Part shown: positions 17,575 through 26,145 of the stretch, one piece after another
How positions within the stretch are numbered: position 1 is the stretch's first letter
Layout of the letters: each line of letters starts with the position of its first letter
From: Chloroflexi bacterium HGW-Chloroflexi-10
GTDB taxonomy: Bacteria > Chloroflexota > Anaerolineae > Anaerolineales > Anaerolineaceae
Assembly (NCBI GenBank): GCA_002840755.1
Contig: PHBZ01000009.1
Location: 248,001 to 312,000, forward strand
Length of the DNA stretch: 64,000 bases
Reading direction: 5' to 3'
Position numbers and translations under genes: made by a program
The notes under the pieces: model-generated
The model's database searches: none
What the model saw: only the letters and a program-made list of their open reading frames with translations
Told to the model about the DNA's origin: nothing

Positions 17575-18621
17575 TCAGTATAAGTCCTCCCTCGCCGTCC
17601 TCTCCACACATTCCCTAACCAGCCCTGGGCCCAGAAAGACCAGCCCGGTATATAACTGCACCAGCACCGCCCCGGCATCCAGGCGTGCGCGCGCATCCTC
17701 AGCCGTCATCACCCCGCCGGATGCTACCACCGGCAATTCCCCGTTGAGTATGGTCACCGCTTCCTTTAATACAGCCAGGGAGCGCTCCCGCAGCGGTGCG
17801 CCGCTCAGCCCCCCGCTTTCCTCCTGGTAACGTGAAGTAATTCCTTCACGCGCTAATGTGGTATTCGTCACGATCACTCCATCCACCTTACCATCCACTG
17901 CTGCCTGCAAAGCACCCGCCAGACCCTCAGCAGGCATATCGGGTGAGAGTTTCACCAGAATCGGAAGCATCTTTTGCAAATCATGCGCCCGGTCATTACG
18001 TTCTGCCACCGCGGCGATCAAAATTTCACGAAGCACTGTCTCAGACTGTAAAGCACGCAGCCCCGGTGTATTGGGCGAACTGACATTGATCACCAGGTAG
18101 TCTGCCAACGGAGCCATCTGGCGCACCAATGTCACATAATCCTCCGCGGCACGTTCATTCGGCGTTAATTTATTTTTCCCAATATTTACCCCAATCACCA
18201 CCCGTCCACGCTTCATGCGAACCAGGTTTTCCGCCACCAGCGCACCACCCGGATTATTAAAACCCATGCGGTTGATCACTGCCCGATCTTCCACCAGGCG
18301 GAATAGCCGCGGCTGTGGATTACCTGGTTGAGCCAAAGGGGTAACCGTACCCACTTCGATATGACCGAAACCCAGCCCAGCCAATCCAGGCACTACTTCG
18401 GCGTTTTTGTCATAGCCAGCCGCCAACCCGATTGCGTTTGGAAACGTCAATCCAAAGGCATGCACCGGTCGCGGAACTACCCGCGGAGCAAAGCAGCGTT
18501 GCAAACACCAGCATGTCAAACGGCTGCACCCGGCCAGGCGCAGTGCTGCTACAGTGGCGCCATGCGCCTGTTCAGGTTGTAACTGAAAAAGTAAAGGTTT
18601 GATAACCGGATATAAATTCAT
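17575..18621 (-). CDS. pyrD: Dihydroorotate dehydrogenase (quinone), class 2
   Basis: About 348 residues. Oxidises dihydroorotate to orotate with FMN and passes electrons to membrane quinone. The N-terminal helical extension (YPVIKPLLFQLQPEQAH) is typical of class 2 enzymes. Conserved blocks include GLTFPNAIGLAAGYDKN, NRMGFNNPG, INVSSPNTPGLRALQ (catalytic Ser), VKLSPD, and VASGGVMTAEDA. The ATG at 18621 has GGAG eight bases upstream, so the earlier in-frame GTG was rejected. It is the last gene of the pyr operon, 31 bases after pyrFE. A quinone-linked enzyme in an otherwise fermentative setting implies a functional quinone pool or another acceptor. Confidence 0.95.
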   Translation of the reverse strand: MNLYPVIKPLLFQLQPEQAHGATVAALRLAGCSRLTCWCLQRCFAPRVVPRPVHAFGLTFPNAIGLAAGYDKNAEVVPGLAGLGFGHIEVGTVTPLAQPGNPQPRLFRLVEDRAVINRMGFNNPGGALVAENLVRMKRGRVVIGVNIGKNKLTPNERAAEDYVTLVRQMAPLADYLVINVSSPNTPGLRALQSETVLREILIAAVAERNDRAHDLQKMLPILVKLSPDMPAEGLAGALQAAVDGKVDGVIVTNTTLAREGITSRYQEESGGLSGAPLRERSLAVLKEAVTILNGELPVVASGGVMTAEDARARLDAGAVLVQLYTGLVFLGPGLVRECVERTAREDLY

Positions 18622-18652
18622 ATACAACTCCAAAAACACAAATTATTTCAGG

Positions 18653-20101
18653 TTATATGGGCAGCGCTAAGAACTCACGCACAGCCTGGAACTGCTCGTC
18701 AGTGATCAACCCTAGTCCCAGCCAGATTTCCAGCAATTCTGGCAAGGTAAACAGCGCATGCAGGCGGTAACCCTGGGCCGCTAATGCCTCTACCGCGCCA
18801 GAACCGCGGTCAATCAACACCACCACATCCTTTACCAGCAACCCCTGCGCTTTCAGTGTAATAAACGCCTCAAACTTGCTCTCCCCGGTCGTCGCCAGAT
18901 CATCAATCACGACGATGCGCTCGCCAGGGGCAAACACGCCCTCCACCGCTGCCTGTGTGCCATACGCCTTAACCTCTTTACGCGGGTAGATAAAGCGCCA
19001 ACCGCCCTGCAAACTCACCGCAGTCACCAGCGGCAACCCGGCATAAGGGATCCCCGCCAGGCAATCGAACGGCAAATCACGCAGTATCTGCGTGTATAAC
19101 CCAGCCGCATCCCGCAAAAGCTGCGGATAACCGGCCAACTGACGCAGATCGATATAGATTGGCGAAACCAACCCGGATTTGAGCGTAAAACTGCCAAAGC
19201 GCACACAACCACTCTCAAACAATTTTTTGGCAAACCTGCCGCGCCGGTCTGCGTACGCAGATTTCTCTACCATTAGCCCGCTGCGAATAGTGCGCATCTC
19301 ATTCACCAATACTTCAGCTGCCTTGCGAGGATTTTCAGCCCGCGAGATAGCCCGTGAGACCGGCACCAACATGCCCAGCCCATCTTCACGCAGACCGGCC
19401 TGCAAAGCGGCAGCCAATTCACCGCCCTGCGCGCCAACACCCGGCGTGAGGAACCATAACAGAGGTGCTGCGGAGCGTACTCTGGCCAGCGCTTCGGGAT
19501 GGGTAGCACCCACCACCAGGCCCAGGTTATCCAGACGGTTCCATTCTGCCGCTTTCAATGCTACCTGCTCATACAGCAACCCACCGTTCGCCAATAGCAG
19601 GTCCTGAAAATCGCCAGCACCCGGATTGGAAGTTTTACACAACGCAAAAGCACCATACTGCGCGTCTATCAGAAAAGGCGTCAGGCTGTCTTCCCCCAGG
19701 TAAGGATTAAGCGTTACCGCGTCTGCGCCCAACCCCTCAAATACCGCTTTAGCATAAGCCTGCGCCGTGCTGCTGATATCACCACGTTTGGCATCCAACA
19801 CCACCGGTATATCCTGCGGTACGGCTGCGATAACATCCTTTAGCGCCTGCCAGCCCTCTGCCCCGAACACTTCAAAAAAAGCCACATTCGGTTTGTACGC
19901 CAGCGCCAGATCATGCGTGGCCTCAATCAACCGCAGACAAAAATCGCGGGCCGCCCTGGCGCTGTACACCGGCAAATCGGCTTCATGCGGATCCAGCCCA
20001 ACGCATAACAACGAATCGATCCGACGCGCACGCGCCTCCAATCGCTGCATAAAAGCCAGCGGTAATTTTTCATTCTCGGATGGTTTTTGGGGATTGTTCA
20101 T
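18653..20101 (-). CDS. Bifunctional orotidine-5'-phosphate decarboxylase / orotate phosphoribosyltransferase fusion (PyrF-PyrE)
   Basis: A 482-residue fusion that performs the last two steps of UMP synthesis. Residues about 1-270 are a type 2 OMP decarboxylase (LLCVGLDPH, VVLDAKRGDISSTAQAYA with the catalytic Lys/Asp set, LTPGVGAQGG). Residues about 285-482 are an orotate phosphoribosyltransferase (FGSFTLKSGLVSPIYIDLR, YPRKEVKAYG, and the PRPP loop IVVIDDLATTGES). The order is decarboxylase first, opposite to animal UMP synthase but like the fusions described in kinetoplastids and some cyanobacteria. It lies 15 bases after pyrB and 31 before pyrD. Confidence 0.93.
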   Translation of the reverse strand: MNNPQKPSENEKLPLAFMQRLEARARRIDSLLCVGLDPHEADLPVYSARAARDFCLRLIEATHDLALAYKPNVAFFEVFGAEGWQALKDVIAAVPQDIPVVLDAKRGDISSTAQAYAKAVFEGLGADAVTLNPYLGEDSLTPFLIDAQYGAFALCKTSNPGAGDFQDLLLANGGLLYEQVALKAAEWNRLDNLGLVVGATHPEALARVRSAAPLLWFLTPGVGAQGGELAAALQAGLREDGLGMLVPVSRAISRAENPRKAAEVLVNEMRTIRSGLMVEKSAYADRRGRFAKKLFESGCVRFGSFTLKSGLVSPIYIDLRQLAGYPQLLRDAAGLYTQILRDLPFDCLAGIPYAGLPLVTAVSLQGGWRFIYPRKEVKAYGTQAAVEGVFAPGERIVVIDDLATTGESKFEAFITLKAQGLLVKDVVVLIDRGSGAVEALAAQGYRLHALFTLPELLEIWLGLGLITDEQFQAVREFLALPI

Positions 20102-20116
20102 CTTTACAGCCTTTCT

Positions 20117-21109
20117 TTATGCTTTGCCCAACACCATCGCCAGCAAAGCCATGCGCACATACAAACCATATTCCACCTGGCGGAAATACGCCGCCCGTGG
20201 GTCACTATCAACTTCCATGCTAATCTCACCTACCCGCGGCAGTGGATGCATTAAAATCATCTCTTCCTTAGCCTGCTGCATCGTTTCCGGAGTGATCACA
20301 AAGGCGTTTTTCACACGCTCATATGCCTGCGGGTCTTCAAAGCGTTCTTTTTGCACACGGGTTACATACAACACATCCGTCTCGCCAATCACCGCTTCCA
20401 GATTGGTGTATTGCGTCTGGGGAATCCCCTTGGCGGCCACTTCCGCCATGATCTCCTCAGGAAAAGGCAGAATGTCCGGTGAGACATAATTCAGACGCAC
20501 ATCGAAACGCGAGAGCAGGCGTGCCAGGGAATGCACAGTCCGCCCGTATTTTAAATCACCTACCATCGTAATCGTTAACCCGTCCACCTGTTTGAGTTCT
20601 TCGCGAATAGTGTGCAAATCCAGCAGCGCCTGGGTGGGATGCTCACCAACCCCATCCCCGGCGTTGATCACCGGTTTGCTGGCATATTGGGCTGCCAGCG
20701 CTGCTGAGCCTACTTCGGGATGGCGCAGTACGATCACATCGGCGTAGGCCTCCAGCGTACGTACCGTGTCCGGCAGTGATTCACCCTTGGAGACCGAGGA
20801 ATAGCGCACCTCATTAATCGGGATAACCGACCCACCCAATCGTTCCATGGCCGCTGTAAAAGAGGCCGAGGTTCGCGTGGAGGGTTCGTAGAAAAGATTC
20901 GCCAGGATCTTGCCCTTCAACAAGTCAAAAGTGCCAATACGCCGCACCATCTCTTCCATTTCATGCGCCACCGCGAAAATAGCTTCCAGTTCTCTACGGT
21001 GAAACTGATTAACCGAAAGTATATCCTTCTGGTACAGCGGGGCGTTTTTCATGTCGCCAAATGGCAGGTAAGGGGTATCGATGCGGATCGGGGGGGTATG
21101 GATGCTCAT
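20117..21109 (-). CDS. pyrB: Aspartate carbamoyltransferase catalytic subunit
   Basis: 330 residues from the ATG at 21109. Forms carbamoyl-aspartate from carbamoyl phosphate and aspartate. Conserved motifs are [12 protein letters not shown] (carbamoyl-phosphate loop), HPTQALLDL and [10 protein letters not shown]. No regulatory pyrI gene is adjacent. AAAGGA precedes this ATG at good distance. The frame also stays open upstream to an ATG at 21196 that overlaps the pyrC stop codon; the extra 29 codons run straight through a terminator hairpin, so they look like a translated attenuator region rather than part of the mature enzyme. A long isoform cannot be excluded. Confidence 0.94.
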
Positions 21110-21154
21110 GGTTTTCTCTTTCCTTTCATTGCTTGCAAAAATTTTAAATTTACG

Positions 21155-21193
21155 AAAAAAAAGACGATTCTCCAAAAAGAAAATCGTCTTTTT
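21155..21193 (-). terminator. Internal pyrC-pyrB attenuator (intrinsic terminator starting at the pyrC stop codon)
   Basis: On the minus strand the 12-base-pair stem AAAAAGACGATT / AATCGTCTTTTT (21182-21193 and 21158-21169) with a 12-base loop is followed by U8. The 5' arm begins at the pyrC stop codon, so a ribosome finishing pyrC, or restarting at the overlapping ATG at 21196, would block hairpin formation. The loop is itself U-rich. Confidence 0.8.
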
Positions 21194-22278
21194 CATTGTT
21201 TATTCTCCGGCAAAACGGGCATTGAAGGGAAGATACCCCGCCCGCTGCCCGGAACGGCCAATAGTCGCCCTTCGGCAAAAACCGTTTTGCCGCGTAAGAC
21301 CACCCGGGTGATTTTGCCCTGCACCGGCATGCCCTCGAAGGGCGTCCAACCGCAGCGCGTATAAAAGTCCTGCGCGCGAATCTCCCAACGCGCCTGCGGA
21401 TCAATCTCCAGCCAGGTCTCCGCTTGGGCGGTTAGCCCAAATATGCGCCTGGGATTCTCATAACAGCGCGAAATAATGTCCTCCAGAGTCAGGCGTTCTT
21501 GCTGTACGGCGGTCAAAAACAGCGGCAAACTGGTTTCCAACCCCGGGAAGCCCGGCGGCGGATTTCCATCCATTTTCTCAGCCAGCGTGTGCGGCGCATG
21601 ATCACTGGCAAAACAATCAACAACATCCAGGTTGTCCCACAGTGCTTGTTGGTCTGCTTTTGTGGCCAATCGCGGACGCACCTCACGCATTCCCTGCGGC
21701 AAATGCTGCAAATCATCCTCACACAGAAAAAGGTGGTGCGCGCTAACCTCACAGGTAACCGGCAGCCCGGCTTCTATCGCCTGCCGCAGCGCCAGAATAT
21801 CTTCACGGGTGGCCACATGGCAGATATGCGCCATGCGTGGCAAGCTTTCCAACAATGCCAGAAAACGCGCCAGCGTCTCGCCCTCGGCGTGTACCAAAAG
21901 GGGTCTGTTATCCGGCCAGGCGCGCAGATGCGCAGCCCAGTCCCCTTCATCCGTCAGGCGCAGCGGCCCGTAGGTCTGATCCAGGTATAGTTTTAATCCG
22001 GCTGCCCAAGGGGCCAGCGACGCCGCCTCTGTGCTATTGCCCGCTCCGGCACCCAGGTATTGCCCATAATCCACACTGGCTTTAGACTGTGCCTGTGCCA
22101 GTGACCTTTGTAGTGTGGCAGCGTCACACACCGGCGGCTGCGTATTCGGCATCGCCAGAATCTGCGTAAAACCACCGGCCAGTGCAGCGCGCGTCGCACT
22201 TTCCCAATCTTCCTTGTGCGTCGCACCCGGCTCACGCACATGCACGTGCGCATCAATCAACCCCGGTAGGTGGATCAT
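21193..22278 (-). CDS. pyrC: Dihydroorotase
   Basis: 361 residues; zinc amidohydrolase that cyclises carbamoyl-aspartate to dihydroorotate. The metal site HVHVREPG is at residues about 10-17; CHVATRE (near 152), [10 protein letters not shown] (near 177) and FASDHAPH (near 233) supply further ligands. This is the class I type with the HVHxR motif. Its ATG overlaps the stop codon of an upstream 49-codon leader ORF (ATGA), and its own TGA overlaps an ATG that opens the frame into pyrB. It is the first structural gene of the pyr operon. Confidence 0.94.
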
Positions 22279-22424
22279 GCAGCACCTCGTGTTTCAGGCA
22301 GCACACAAAAAAAAGCCGCCCAATCAATGGACGGCTGAGAGAACGAAAAATGAAATGGAACCGGGTGCCGCAGTGGTGCGACCTCTGCCTTGAACTTGTT
22401 CAGACATGTAAACAACGTGTACAT
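22275..22424 (-). CDS. Putative pyr operon leader peptide (49 codons) overlapping an attenuator
   Basis: An ATG at 22424 opens a 49-codon ORF with no internal stop. Its TGA overlaps the pyrC ATG. The peptide starts MYTLFTCLNKFK and contains a Phe/Ser-rich run PFHFSFS encoded by a U-rich stretch just before the terminator stem, then SQP and AAFFC, the last encoded across the 3' stem arm and the U8 run. The Escherichia coli pyrBI leader peptide has the same layout, with a Phe-rich run, then SQP and AFFC across its U-run. The start codon is eight bases after a -10 box, so translation may be leaderless. No homology search was made; the similarity may be convergence forced by the terminator. Confidence 0.7.
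   Translation of the reverse strand: MYTLFTCLNKFKAEVAPLRHPVPFHFSFSQPSIDWAAFFCVLPETRGAA
22307..22336 (-). terminator. pyr leader attenuator terminator
   Basis: On the minus strand AGCCGTCC pairs with GGGCGGCT (one G-U pair, 7-base loop) and is followed by U8. It lies inside the 49-codon leader ORF, 29 bases before the pyrC ATG, so leader translation can occlude it. A U/C-rich tract precedes the stem. Confidence 0.85.
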
Positions 22425-22432
22425 CGTTGCTT

Positions 22433-22460
22433 ATTTTAAGCGGATTCCCGGGTTTGTCAA
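22433..22460 (-). promoter_or_regulatory. Strong promoter of the pyr operon
   Basis: On the minus strand a perfect TTGACA (22455-22460) is followed after 16 bases by TAAAAT (22433-22438). The -10 box ends eight bases before the leader-peptide ATG. Confidence 0.8.
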
Positions 22461-22522
22461 GGGTGCAATTTCTTTAAAGGCGCACTGATTTTACCGGAGT
22501 CTCCGTTATAAAGGCAGCCTGT

Positions 22523-24256
22523 CTACACTCCTTCCGTCAATTTTTCTTTATGCAGGATCTCATGGGCAATGGAGCTGCCAGCCTCACCCAGGAATTCCTG
22601 GTAAATGGTCTGGATGGCGGGATTATGGTGAGCAACGCGGATCGCCGCATTGCGATCAAGGTGATACAAGCCGCGGATACGCTGTTCAATAATCTCATCG
22701 CGGTTCTCGGCATAAGGCTGCCCGCCTCCGTTTACACAGCCGCTTGGGCATGCCATGATTTCGATAACATCGAAGTGCTCCTCGCCGCTTTCAATCTTTT
22801 CGAGAACTTTGCGGGTGTTACCCAAGCCGGATACCGCCGCTACTCGGACGATGCGTCCGTTCATCTCCACCTCGGCTGTGCGGATGGCGTCCTGACCGCG
22901 CAGCGCCATGAAGTTAACGTCTGTCAGTTCGCGCCCGGTGCTCTTTTCATACACCGTGCGCAGCACCGCCTCGAGCACACCGCCTGTTGCGCCAAAAATA
23001 ACGCCTGCTCCGCTCGTCTCACCCAGCGGGCTGTCAAATTCCTCTTCCGGCATATGGCGCAGGTCTACCGAACCTTCTTTGAACATCTTGGCAAGTTCGC
23101 GGGTGGTCAACACCAGGTCAACATCCTGCAGATTGTAGGTTGTTGCCTCGGGCTGGGTAGCTTCATATTTCTTGGCAATACAGGGCATAACCGAAACCAT
23201 TACGATATCTTCAGGGTTCAGTCCCATCTTTTTGGCATAATAGGTTTTCGCCACCGCTCCGGTCATTTGCTGCGGTGACTTGCAGGTCGAAGCCATGTAA
23301 CTCAATTTCGGAAAATGATAGGTGAGGAAGTTGATCCAACCCGGGCAGCATGATGTCAGAATCGGCAGGTTCTCGTTCTTTTCCAGGCGCTCCATAACCT
23401 CTTTGCCTTCTTCCACCACAGTCAGGTCAGCGCCAAAGGTGGTATCAAAAACGGCGTCAAAACCGATGCGCCGCAATCCGGCAACCAGCTTGCCGGTTAC
23501 CGCCTGGCTGGCGGAAAGACCAAATTCTTCGCCAATGGCAACCCGCACCGCCGGCGCAATTTGTACAACCACCTTCTTATTGGGGTTGAAAATCGCTTCC
23601 CAAGTCTCCATGATGTAGCCCACCCCGGTCAGCGCAGCGGTCGGGCACACACTCACACATTGTCCGCAGTAGGTGCAGTTCGATTCGGCGATCGGCTTCA
23701 TTTCAGCCGGGGCGACCACGGTATTAAACCCACGCCCAAAAGCAGTCAACGCGCCCACGGTCTGCACCTCGTTGCACATCGTTTCACAACGGCGGCACAT
23801 AATGCACTTGTTGGGGTCGCGTTTCAACGCCCCACTGGATTTATCAATTTCAAAGGTCGATTTTTCACCTTTATAGCGTTGAGTATTGATGCCAAACGCC
23901 CAGACCAACTTCTGCAATTCACAATCGGTCGATTTGGCACACACCAGGCAATCGAAAGGATGGTTGGAAATGATCAATTCCAGATTCATGCGTCGTGAAA
24001 GCAAAACACGCTTGGAATTGGTGGTGATCTGCATGCCCTCGCTCACCGGGGTAGCGCAGGCTGGCGCCAGATTGCGGCGCCCGTCCACTTCCACCACGCA
24101 GATGCGGCAGGATGCCACCTGGTTGACAAAACAGGATTTCTCCAGTTTCAGGTAACACAGGGTCGGGATATCCAGGTGCAATGTGCGCGCCGCCTCCAGG
24201 ATGGTGGTTTTTTCGGGAACACTCACTCGTTGTCCGTCAATGGTTAAGTTAATCAT
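22523..24256 (-). CDS. hydA: [FeFe]-hydrogenase catalytic subunit, bifurcating HydA type
   Basis: 577 residues. Reduces protons to H2, probably by confurcating electrons from NADH and reduced ferredoxin together with HydB and HydC. In order: N-terminal plant-type [2Fe-2S] domain (Cys around residues 34-68), His-ligated cluster motif (HPFDCLVC...DCELQ), two 4Fe-4S ferredoxin motifs (CIMCRRCETMC, CTYCGQCVSVC), and the H-cluster domain with L1 TSCCPGW, L2 MPCIAKKYE and L3 MACPSGCVNGGGQP. All H-cluster cysteines are present. It is the last gene of the run hydC-hydB-hydA. No HydE/F/G maturases are in the window. Confidence 0.95.
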   Translation of the reverse strand: MINLTIDGQRVSVPEKTTILEAARTLHLDIPTLCYLKLEKSCFVNQVASCRICVVEVDGRRNLAPACATPVSEGMQITTNSKRVLLSRRMNLELIISNHPFDCLVCAKSTDCELQKLVWAFGINTQRYKGEKSTFEIDKSSGALKRDPNKCIMCRRCETMCNEVQTVGALTAFGRGFNTVVAPAEMKPIAESNCTYCGQCVSVCPTAALTGVGYIMETWEAIFNPNKKVVVQIAPAVRVAIGEEFGLSASQAVTGKLVAGLRRIGFDAVFDTTFGADLTVVEEGKEVMERLEKNENLPILTSCCPGWINFLTYHFPKLSYMASTCKSPQQMTGAVAKTYYAKKMGLNPEDIVMVSVMPCIAKKYEATQPEATTYNLQDVDLVLTTRELAKMFKEGSVDLRHMPEEEFDSPLGETSGAGVIFGATGGVLEAVLRTVYEKSTGRELTDVNFMALRGQDAIRTAEVEMNGRIVRVAAVSGLGNTRKVLEKIESGEEHFDVIEIMACPSGCVNGGGQPYAENRDEIIEQRIRGLYHLDRNAAIRVAHHNPAIQTIYQEFLGEAGSSIAHEILHKEKLTEGV

Positions 24257-24267
24257 GTTCTCTCTCC

Positions 24268-26145
24268 TTAATTCCGCACAATAGCTGAGAATTTACAGCG
24301 GGTCATGCACATACCACACTTGATACACTTGCTCTGATCAATGATGTGTGGCTTTTTGACCGAGCCGCTGATACAGTTGACCGGGCAACCGCGCATACAG
24401 GATGTACAGCCAATGCATTTCTCAGGCAAAATCTCATATTTCAACAATTTCTGGCACACACCTGCCGGACAGCGTTTATCGATGATATGTGCTTCATACT
24501 CATCCATAAAATATTTCATCGTCGATAACACCGGGTTAGGGGCAGTCTGCCCCAGACCGCACAGCGAGGTATCCATAATCGTGTTGGAAAGCAGTCGCAT
24601 TTCTTCAAGATATTCCTCAGTACCGCGCCCTTCGGTGATCTCTGTCAGAATCTCCAGCATGCGTTTGTTGCCTATGCGGCAGGGGGCGCAGCGTCCACAG
24701 GATTCTTCAACGATGAAATCCATATAAAAACGAGCGAGGTTGACCATACAGTCCTGGTCGCTCATAATAATCATGCCCCCCGATCCCATCATTGAACCAA
24801 TGGAAGCCAGTGATTCGTAGTCAATGGGTGTATCCAGATATTCAGCCGGGATGCAGCCGCCGGAAGGTCCGCCGGTCTGGGCAGCCTTGAATGCCGCCCC
24901 GTTTTTGATGCCCCCGCCAATCTCATAGATAATCTCGCGCAGTGTTGTCCCCATCGGCACTTCAACCAGCCCAACATTGTTTACCTTGCCCGCCAGGGCA
25001 AACACCTTGGTACCCTTGGATGTCTGCGTACCGATTTCGCTGAACCAGTCCGCGCCGCGTTGGAAAACCACTGGGATGTTTGCTAGTGTCTCTACATTAT
25101 TGACAATAGTGGGGCGCGCCCACAGGCCGCTTTCTGCCGGGAAGGGTGGTTTGGTGCCCGGTTCACCACGTCGTCCTTCCAGAGAGTGGATCAAAGCGGT
25201 CTCTTCACCGCAGACGAAAGCCCCAGCACCAAGGCGAATATCAATGTCGAAATCGAACCCGCTCTCCAGGATGTTTTTGCCCAGCATACCACAAGCACGT
25301 GCCTGTTCCAGGGCAATTTGCAGGCGATTAACTGCCAGGGGATATTCAGCACGGATATAGACGAAACCCTGGTGAGCCCCGATAGCATAGGCAGTGATTG
25401 CCATGCCTTCGATGACACTGTGAGAATCACCCTCCATGATGGACCGGTCCATGAATGCACCCGGATCTCCCTCATCGGCATTACAGATGATGAATTTTTC
25501 AGGATTTTCGTACTGGCGGGCAAACTCCCATTTTTTACCGGTCGAAAACCCAGCGCCACCACGGCCGCGCAAACCTGATTTTTTCATTTCATCAATCACT
25601 TCGGTGGGTGACATTTCCGTCAGAACTTTTGCCAGTGCCTGGTAACCGCCATTGGCAATGTATTCTTCAACCTTTTCCGGATTGATCAAGCCGCAATTTC
25701 GTAGAGCAACCCGTTTCTGAAAACGGTAAAAATTGATATCATCAGCATTTTCAATCTTCTGCTTCACAGCCGGGTCTTCATATAACAGGCGTTCCACTTT
25801 CTTACCCTTAAGGATGTGTTGTTCAAACAGTTCAGGCACATCCTCGGGCTTAACCTGTACATAAAAAATGCCTTCCGGAAAGATTTCGACAATCGGTCCT
25901 TTTTCACAAAAACCAAAACAGCCGGCAATCGAAACCTGAACGCGGCCCGCGAGATCATGCTGGTCAATTATGCGCTGAAAATCGGACACGATCTTCTCAC
26001 TCTGCGAGGCATGGCATCCCGTTCCGCCGCAAACCAGGATCATCTGGGCGCCGTCATCAGCGGCAATACCCATACGCGTGTTCAGGAGGGATTTATACTG
26101 GTCGTAAGACTCAATCAATTGTTGTTTGTTTTTTATCTCAAGCAT
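24268..26145 (-). CDS. hydB: Bifurcating hydrogenase flavoprotein subunit (NuoF-like, NADH-binding)
   Basis: 625 residues. It has a thioredoxin-like [2Fe-2S] domain (CGGTGCHASQ, CFGFCEKGP, residues about 40-105), a NuoF-type FMN/NADH domain (GLRGRGGAGFSTGKKWEFA; NADEGDPGAFMDR), the 4Fe-4S site SCGRCAPCRIGNKRM, and a C-terminal double ferredoxin (CIGCTSCMRGCP, CIKCGMCMTRC). This is the full domain set of HydB in NADH/ferredoxin-dependent hydrogenases; flavin at this subunit is thought to be the bifurcation site. Its ATG overlaps the hydC end by eight bases, and it is followed by hydA after 11 bases. Confidence 0.95.
   Translation of the reverse strand: MLEIKNKQQLIESYDQYKSLLNTRMGIAADDGAQMILVCGGTGCHASQSEKIVSDFQRIIDQHDLAGRVQVSIAGCFGFCEKGPIVEIFPEGIFYVQVKPEDVPELFEQHILKGKKVERLLYEDPAVKQKIENADDINFYRFQKRVALRNCGLINPEKVEEYIANGGYQALAKVLTEMSPTEVIDEMKKSGLRGRGGAGFSTGKKWEFARQYENPEKFIICNADEGDPGAFMDRSIMEGDSHSVIEGMAITAYAIGAHQGFVYIRAEYPLAVNRLQIALEQARACGMLGKNILESGFDFDIDIRLGAGAFVCGEETALIHSLEGRRGEPGTKPPFPAESGLWARPTIVNNVETLANIPVVFQRGADWFSEIGTQTSKGTKVFALAGKVNNVGLVEVPMGTTLREIIYEIGGGIKNGAAFKAAQTGGPSGGCIPAEYLDTPIDYESLASIGSMMGSGGMIIMSDQDCMVNLARFYMDFIVEESCGRCAPCRIGNKRMLEILTEITEGRGTEEYLEEMRLLSNTIMDTSLCGLGQTAPNPVLSTMKYFMDEYEAHIIDKRCPAGVCQKLLKYEILPEKCIGCTSCMRGCPVNCISGSVKKPHIIDQSKCIKCGMCMTRCKFSAIVRN

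Follow-up and report, generated by a model that had tools for sequence, protein, structure and literature searches.

The question raised by this locus is whether a pyrimidine operon in a phylum distant from E. coli is controlled by a leader reading frame and a terminator of the kind found in front of E. coli pyrBI. Leader-peptide UTP sensing is textbook knowledge for E. coli. The DNA analyzed here is a stretch of 64,000 nucleotides from Chloroflexi bacterium HGW-Chloroflexi-10 (the window), for which a preliminary description had proposed such an attenuator, beginning almost directly at its own start codon, upstream of pyrC.

The operon is encoded on the minus strand in the order pyrC-pyrB-pyrFE-pyrD. 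The first gene, pyrC (dihydroorotase, 21193..22278), matched TIGR00857 at an E-value of 2.1e-80 and 270.7 bits and, because this score lies below the 279.05-bit cut-off of that general dihydroorotase model, the naming of PyrC leans on its context too. The start of pyrB (aspartate carbamoyltransferase, 20117..21196) overlaps the pyrC stop, and its product scored 369 bits with TIGR00670, above cut-off; the frame contains 56 residues N-terminal of the family-model match, and the true pyrB start may lie further inside it. These are followed, on the same strand, by a fused pyrF-pyrE gene (18653..20101), in which residues 17-262 matched TIGR02127 and residues 294-454 matched TIGR00336, both above cut-off, and by pyrD (17575..18639), a quinone-type dihydroorotate dehydrogenase recognized by TIGR01036 (372 bits, above cut-off). 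The upstream neighbour is a [FeFe] hydrogenase on the same strand. The scan found no terminator-like site at 22461-22522, in the gap that separates the stop codon of the hydrogenase (22523) from the pyr promoter; any transcription continuing out of the hydrogenase genes would likewise encounter the attenuator. In the search for carbamoyl phosphate synthetase genes, carA (TIGR01368) gave no match at an E-value of 1e-60 in 19 of the 26 genomes searched (the window's own and 18 other leader-bearing ones), and for carB the window's own genome yielded at best 26.9 bits, with a cut-off of 1027; both observations bear on where PyrB obtains its carbamoyl phosphate.

All of the elements named in the preliminary description were located in front of pyrC, on the minus strand. 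The promoter was read from the sequence and recovered by a promoter scan as the best of nine promoter-like sites in 20000-26000; its -35 box TTGACA (22455..22460) and -10 box TAAAAT (22433..22438) are separated by a 16-nt spacer and carry 11 of 12 consensus bases. Eight bases 3' of the -10 box, an ATG at 22424 opens a near-leaderless leader-peptide ORF of 49 codons plus TGA (22275..22424), the stop of which overlaps the pyrC ATG at 22278. A possible small hairpin, GTCGCACCACTGCGGC (22367..22382, minus strand; 6 pairs, weak in the window), is situated 5' of a U-rich tract (22337..22360, minus strand; 14 T in 24 bases), the candidate UTP-sensitive pause region. The intrinsic terminator, or attenuator (22307..22336, minus strand), lies inside the leader ORF and consists of a nine-pair stem (22336-22314) with 6 GC pairs and a loop of 5, together with a T8 run (22314-22307), the first T of which closes the stem. 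An imperfect inverted repeat, TGTAAAC-AAC-GTGTACA on the plus strand (22407-22423), spans the expected start site and the leader ATG; it could be an operator or a chance occurrence, and no such operator-like dyad was seen by eye in 60 start regions of relatives. A conserved word 3' of the terminator (GCCTGCTGCC) was suspected by eye; among 85 representative leaders, 4 carried GCCTGCT and 5 carried GCCTGTT.

The window sequence itself is close to chance expectation by single-sequence measures. The leader fold was ordinary (MFE z -0.58, single-sequence folding), terminator-like sites in the regional scan numbered 7 as compared with 6.4 +- 2.9 in shuffles, and promoter-like sites were moderately above shuffles (9 and 5.1 +- 2.1, respectively). 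Because these fold and site counts are near chance, significance was taken from relatives instead.

Regions upstream of pyrC were gathered from 61 genomes, from 400 genomes of the order (231 with a close pyrC) and from 298 genomes of the class (161 with one). Eighty regions, chosen for spread among the matches listed in the order and class searches, were fetched besides up to 30 loci per search, and the named loci were the best 80 of 568 retained. From the resulting 244 loci, five (L001 and L032-L035) were removed, being either no pyrC leaders or a repeat of the window itself, and a further 27 for want of a usable pyrC start, leaving 212, of which 197 were distinct. A leader was called when a promoter scoring at least 9.7 was accompanied by a terminator between it and pyrC, and this combination was found in 104 of the 197 distinct upstream regions. 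In most leader-bearing relatives the promoter had a TTGACA-like box with a 16- or 17-nt spacer. The 104 leaders fell into 85 clusters, each of which contributed one representative; the shuffle and other-frame controls described below correct only partly for relatedness, although the leaders were clustered. Loci L054, L057, L189 and 12 of L246-L259 were kept out of the statistics and inspected by eye. Since pyrC served as bait, finding the element next to pyrimidine genes does not count as independent evidence.

The openness of the leader frame was examined in the 72 of 85 representatives that had an ATG 3-21 nt after the -10 box (13 did not). The ORF beginning at the first ATG came to within 6 nt of the stem, or further, in 69 of these 72, compared with 39.2 +- 3.9 in dinucleotide shuffles, while reading these sequences in the remaining two frames gave 36 and 41 open cases. 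When any ATG, GTG or TTG located 3-23 nt after the -10 box was accepted, the ORF extended equally far in 99 of all 104 leaders. Three of the five exceptions had no start codon in reach (L021, L129 and L232), and the remaining two ended 60 nt (L150) and 7 nt (L025) short. The reading frame is thus kept among relatives, and cases in which the terminator is kept and the frame broken are rare. On comparison of the sequences, conservation of the layout is far beyond chance.

The near-leaderless start claimed at the outset holds as well: the ATG was situated 8-11 nt after the -10 box in 72 of 104 leaders which, given the usual distance to the (predicted) transcription start site, would leave a 5' leader of no more than a few bases. 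Outside the order a larger gap between the -10 box and the start codon is common, being 17-22 nt in 7 of 15 such loci. The peptide itself does not appear to be strongly constrained, as judged from a dN/dS of ~0.64 in 22 close pairs. An indel test in these same pairs gave 6 of 31 gaps in multiples of three and so did not support frame keeping, although shifting gap placement and stem-base calls make the count unreliable.

The endpoint of the leader ORF is more variable than its entry into the stem. Among 100 assigned leader ORFs, 68 run fully through the stem, and 49 of these 68 use the single frame in which the stop codon can overlap or abut the start of pyrC (40 of 54 among representatives, p 1e-9). 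The stop fell within -12 to +10 of the pyrC start in 45 of the 68, including 18 through-stem ORFs in which it occupies positions 2-4 of pyrC, as it does in the window. The overlap of leader stop and pyrC start, described for the window, is therefore common and not universal. This strong frame bias could be explained if the terminator were a constitutive, partial one and the leader ORF served solely to deliver ribosomes to pyrC by re-initiation; for leader genes in general, re-initiation is proposed in PMC4833913. However, 32 of the 100 assigned ORFs do not pass the stem, most of them ending at its base or inside it, at a distance from pyrC, and ribosome delivery leaves the U-rich tract without a role; we regard this explanation as very improbable. 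A ribosome ending at the stem base or within the stem would still cover its 5' arm. Two close relatives, L020 and L116, differ in just this respect, one ORF passing through the stem and the other ending at or in it. What is kept, as far as the predicted frames tell, is that a ribosome reaches the stem, and it is the sequel that varies.

The U-rich run noted in the window occupies a fixed place in the relatives. Over the 85 representative leaders the T fraction was 0.46-0.48 at positions -20 to -11 relative to the stem and ~0.2 further upstream, and at bases 20 to 6 before the stem it was 0.433, as compared with 0.275 at the corresponding bases of 101 control terminators taken from these loci (p 4e-10). 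Tract strength is uneven, with T4 runs anywhere in the leader in 59 of 85 cases. By codon position, T amounted to 0.35/0.41/0.42 in the tract and 0.17/0.24/0.23 upstream; the rise at all three positions suggests that the signal lies in the nucleotides more than in the codons, as would be expected if the tract were read by RNA polymerase. Upstream of the stem, before the tract, the group has a GC-rich stretch that is somewhat more structured than shuffles (mean MFE z -1.02 +- 0.18, 81 of 85 leaders); in the window, despite this group trend, no upstream pause hairpin was seen (z +0.76).

The composition of the tract bears on an attenuator of the trp or his type, in which phenylalanine or another amino acid would be sensed through control codons and alternative hairpins. 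Codons for Phe made up 17.2% of the tract, compared with 11.1% expected from shuffled tract bases, and codons for Pro 10.8% compared with 6.7%, which speaks for such a device. The Phe excess is, however, what runs of T would yield, T is raised at every codon position, and we know of no link between phenylalanine and the pyr operon. The arrangement of the leader also argues against it: the ORFs here enter or cross the stem. According to PMC4824070, the terminator of an amino-acid attenuator is found more than 20 bp downstream of the leader gene, and that of pyrBI inside it. Finally, no antiterminator pairing was found. Base pairing of the leader with the stem's 5' arm did not exceed that in shuffled sequences (z +0.18 +- 0.09, 85 leaders), indicating that there is no trp-like antiterminator, and an upstream pairing stronger than the terminator hairpin was present in 2 of 85 leaders. 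Taken together, we give amino-acid sensing hardly any credence.

The main rival is that the terminator is indeed occluded by the leader ribosome, and that what is reported is the status of translation or growth (ribosome loading or elongation rate), with the U tract acting as an aid to termination or as a constant pause. All of the evidence from ORF and terminator sequences fits this equally well, and a closely following ribosome suppresses terminators generally (PMC4824070). Against it stand the lack of such a tract at the 101 control terminators and the failure to find PyrR as an alternative pyrimidine regulator. Sensing of translation status is judged unlikely.

The search for PyrR gave no match at an E-value of 1e-25 in either of two sets, of 80 and 79 genomes, covering genomes with and without the leader; a control search returned hits in 6 of 14 genomes, B. 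subtilis among them. The best match in the window's own genome scored 39.5 bits (cut-off 138). No Rfam family matched anywhere in the window at gathering score and, near the window's leader, Rfam hits up to an E-value of 5 included no PyrR motif, the sole hit being mir-722 at a chance-level E-value of 2.2. The earlier statement that no PyrR site is visible is upheld by these results for the window and is extended by the 0 of 159 genomes to the protein. They also weigh against the possibility that a protein- or ligand-binding RNA, whether PyrR-like or a riboswitch, controls the terminator and that the ORF is incidental. In favour of such an RNA are the terminator ahead of a biosynthetic operon and the upstream hairpins in part of the group; yet the leaders have diverged strongly while the reading frame has been kept, and an RNA of this kind is, in our estimation, most improbable.

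Named relatives (Thermanaerothrix daxensis, Leptolinea, Brevefilum and Anaerolinea MAGs) place the group in the Anaerolineae, Chloroflexota; the upstream region of the cultured T. daxensis GNS-1 (L184) is identical to that of L096. The leader ORF was present in 96 of 149 family-labelled loci and in 21 of 40 families, a count that covers the loci with genome labels and scores removed duplicates as negative. It was undetected in 12 of 23 loci of one family (f12), in 5 of 6 of another (f13) and in 19 of the 40 families. The 93 of 197 distinct upstream regions in which the detector found no promoter with terminator comprise some true absences (the f12 loci and distant phyla) and some misses (L250-like loci, L054, L057, L246 and L247), and because true cases are missed in this way the counts are lower bounds. 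By eye, and outside the statistics, the layout was recognized in six loci of the same class (L054, L057, L246, L247, L249 and L250) and, with a weaker tract, in one locus from another class of the phylum (L252). The detector found no terminator in five loci labelled Gottesmanbacteria, Uhrbacteria or Daviesbacteria (L206, L210, L211, L212 and L215), and several archaeal or otherwise distant loci had been removed before counting.

Two further observations concern genes other than the leader itself. Upstream of carA in one genome (G013, locus L262), inspection by eye revealed what looks like the near-leaderless arrangement seen at pyrC, an ATG 8 nt after a -10-like TACACT, with a frame running through a terminator and past the carA start; the corresponding frame in a second genome (G017, L260) ends well short of the terminator, and nothing obvious was seen at five other carA loci. 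Within the window's own genus, six congeners (G002-G007) gave no pyrC match at 1e-90 and a seventh (G001) has a pyrC of 45% identity, in front of which the detector saw no leader, while other genera of the family have a pyrC of 58-66% identity in several cases, and of 47-50% or none in others. This pattern suggests that the pyr operon has been replaced, lost or transferred within the family.

The features of a pyrBI-type attenuator that can be looked for in sequence, namely a terminator, an ORF running into it, a U tract and the lack of an antiterminator, are all found. We therefore consider it likely that the element is a ribosome-occlusion attenuator of the pyrBI type, most plausibly UTP-sensing by way of polymerase pausing, near-leaderless and, in many members, coupled to pyrC. 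The transcription start, leader translation, pausing, UTP as the signal and re-initiation are predictions of this model. The transcript would start at, or a few bases before, the leader ATG, and the ribosome would load on the 5' end of this (near-)leaderless message. When UTP is low, RNA polymerase would be slowed in the U-rich tract, the last ~20 nt before the terminator, allowing the ribosome to catch up; with the stem's 5' arm covered by it, the operon would be read. When UTP is plentiful, polymerase would outrun the ribosome, the hairpin would form and transcription would end before pyrC. In many relatives, as in the window, the ribosome that reads the leader would finish on the pyrC start codon and could re-initiate there.

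A broader proposal is that UTP attenuation on a leaderless mRNA, by a sensor that fits in ~150 nt and often passes its ribosome to pyrC, is a class-wide, possibly older, form belonging to the Chloroflexota, arose independently of enterobacterial pyrBI and forms the main pyrimidine control in the absence of PyrR. To this we assign roughly even chances. If a leaderless UTP sensor does operate here, it would imply coupling of transcription and translation from the first codon. It is of interest that a pyrBI design, in near-leaderless form, occurs in many families of a distant phylum and in genomes where PyrR was not found. This raises the questions of whether the tight ribosome-polymerase coupling that the mechanism needs exists in Chloroflexota, and of whether UTP-sensing leader control arose twice; in addition, ~100 natural variants are now at hand for deriving how far apart the start, the U tract and the stem must lie. 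Literature searches, in a collection lacking most subscription journals, turned up no earlier description of a leader of this kind from the Chloroflexota, though one may exist elsewhere.

Among known systems, the closest in design is the pyrBI leader (pyrL), which in E. coli MG1655 has the order ATG, small hairpin, TTTTTCTTCCC tract, T8 terminator and a stop three bases before pyrB. A leader ORF across an intrinsic terminator, a pyrimidine operon and a U-rich tract before the stem are common to both, and in both the leader stop lies near the first gene; the small hairpin before the tract is found in part of the group. The window leader resembles the MG1655 PyrL peptide, as had been claimed, 22 residues aligning at 45% identity (E 0.002 when just these two sequences are compared), and the likeness is confined to the part covering the U tract and terminator. 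Since the leader peptides of other Anaerolineae differ widely, it probably reflects a shared design, in which tract and terminator dictate the codons, more than homology. The starts differ: in E. coli the 5' leader is longer and has a GGAGGA-like site before the pyrL ATG, and the leader here is near-leaderless; so do the first genes, pyrB in E. coli and here pyrC, the start of which is often overlapped by the leader stop. Over pyrL, E. coli needs tight coupling of transcription and translation (PMC5021804). No UUU stands near the start in the window; for pyrBI, reiterative transcription that depends on UTP has been described (PMC6245113). The trp, his and leu attenuators likewise combine a leader peptide with a terminator, whereas here there is no run of pathway control codons, no antiterminator, and an ORF that enters the terminator. 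PyrR-binding RNA attenuators (RF00515) share with this system a terminator before pyr operons, with the difference that a leader ORF, presumably translated, is found here in place of PyrR and, in the window, of a PyrR RNA motif. In the E. coli rph-pyrE attenuator, ribosome coupling takes place at a U-rich tract before the terminator, and the translated upstream gene is the full-length rph; the U-rich tract as the proposed site of coupling is the point of likeness, and the dedicated small ORF here the point of difference. Seen against these systems, UTP-sensing attenuation as such was known from E. coli pyrBI, and what appears to be new is a near-leaderless, pyrBI-like layout in the Chloroflexota.
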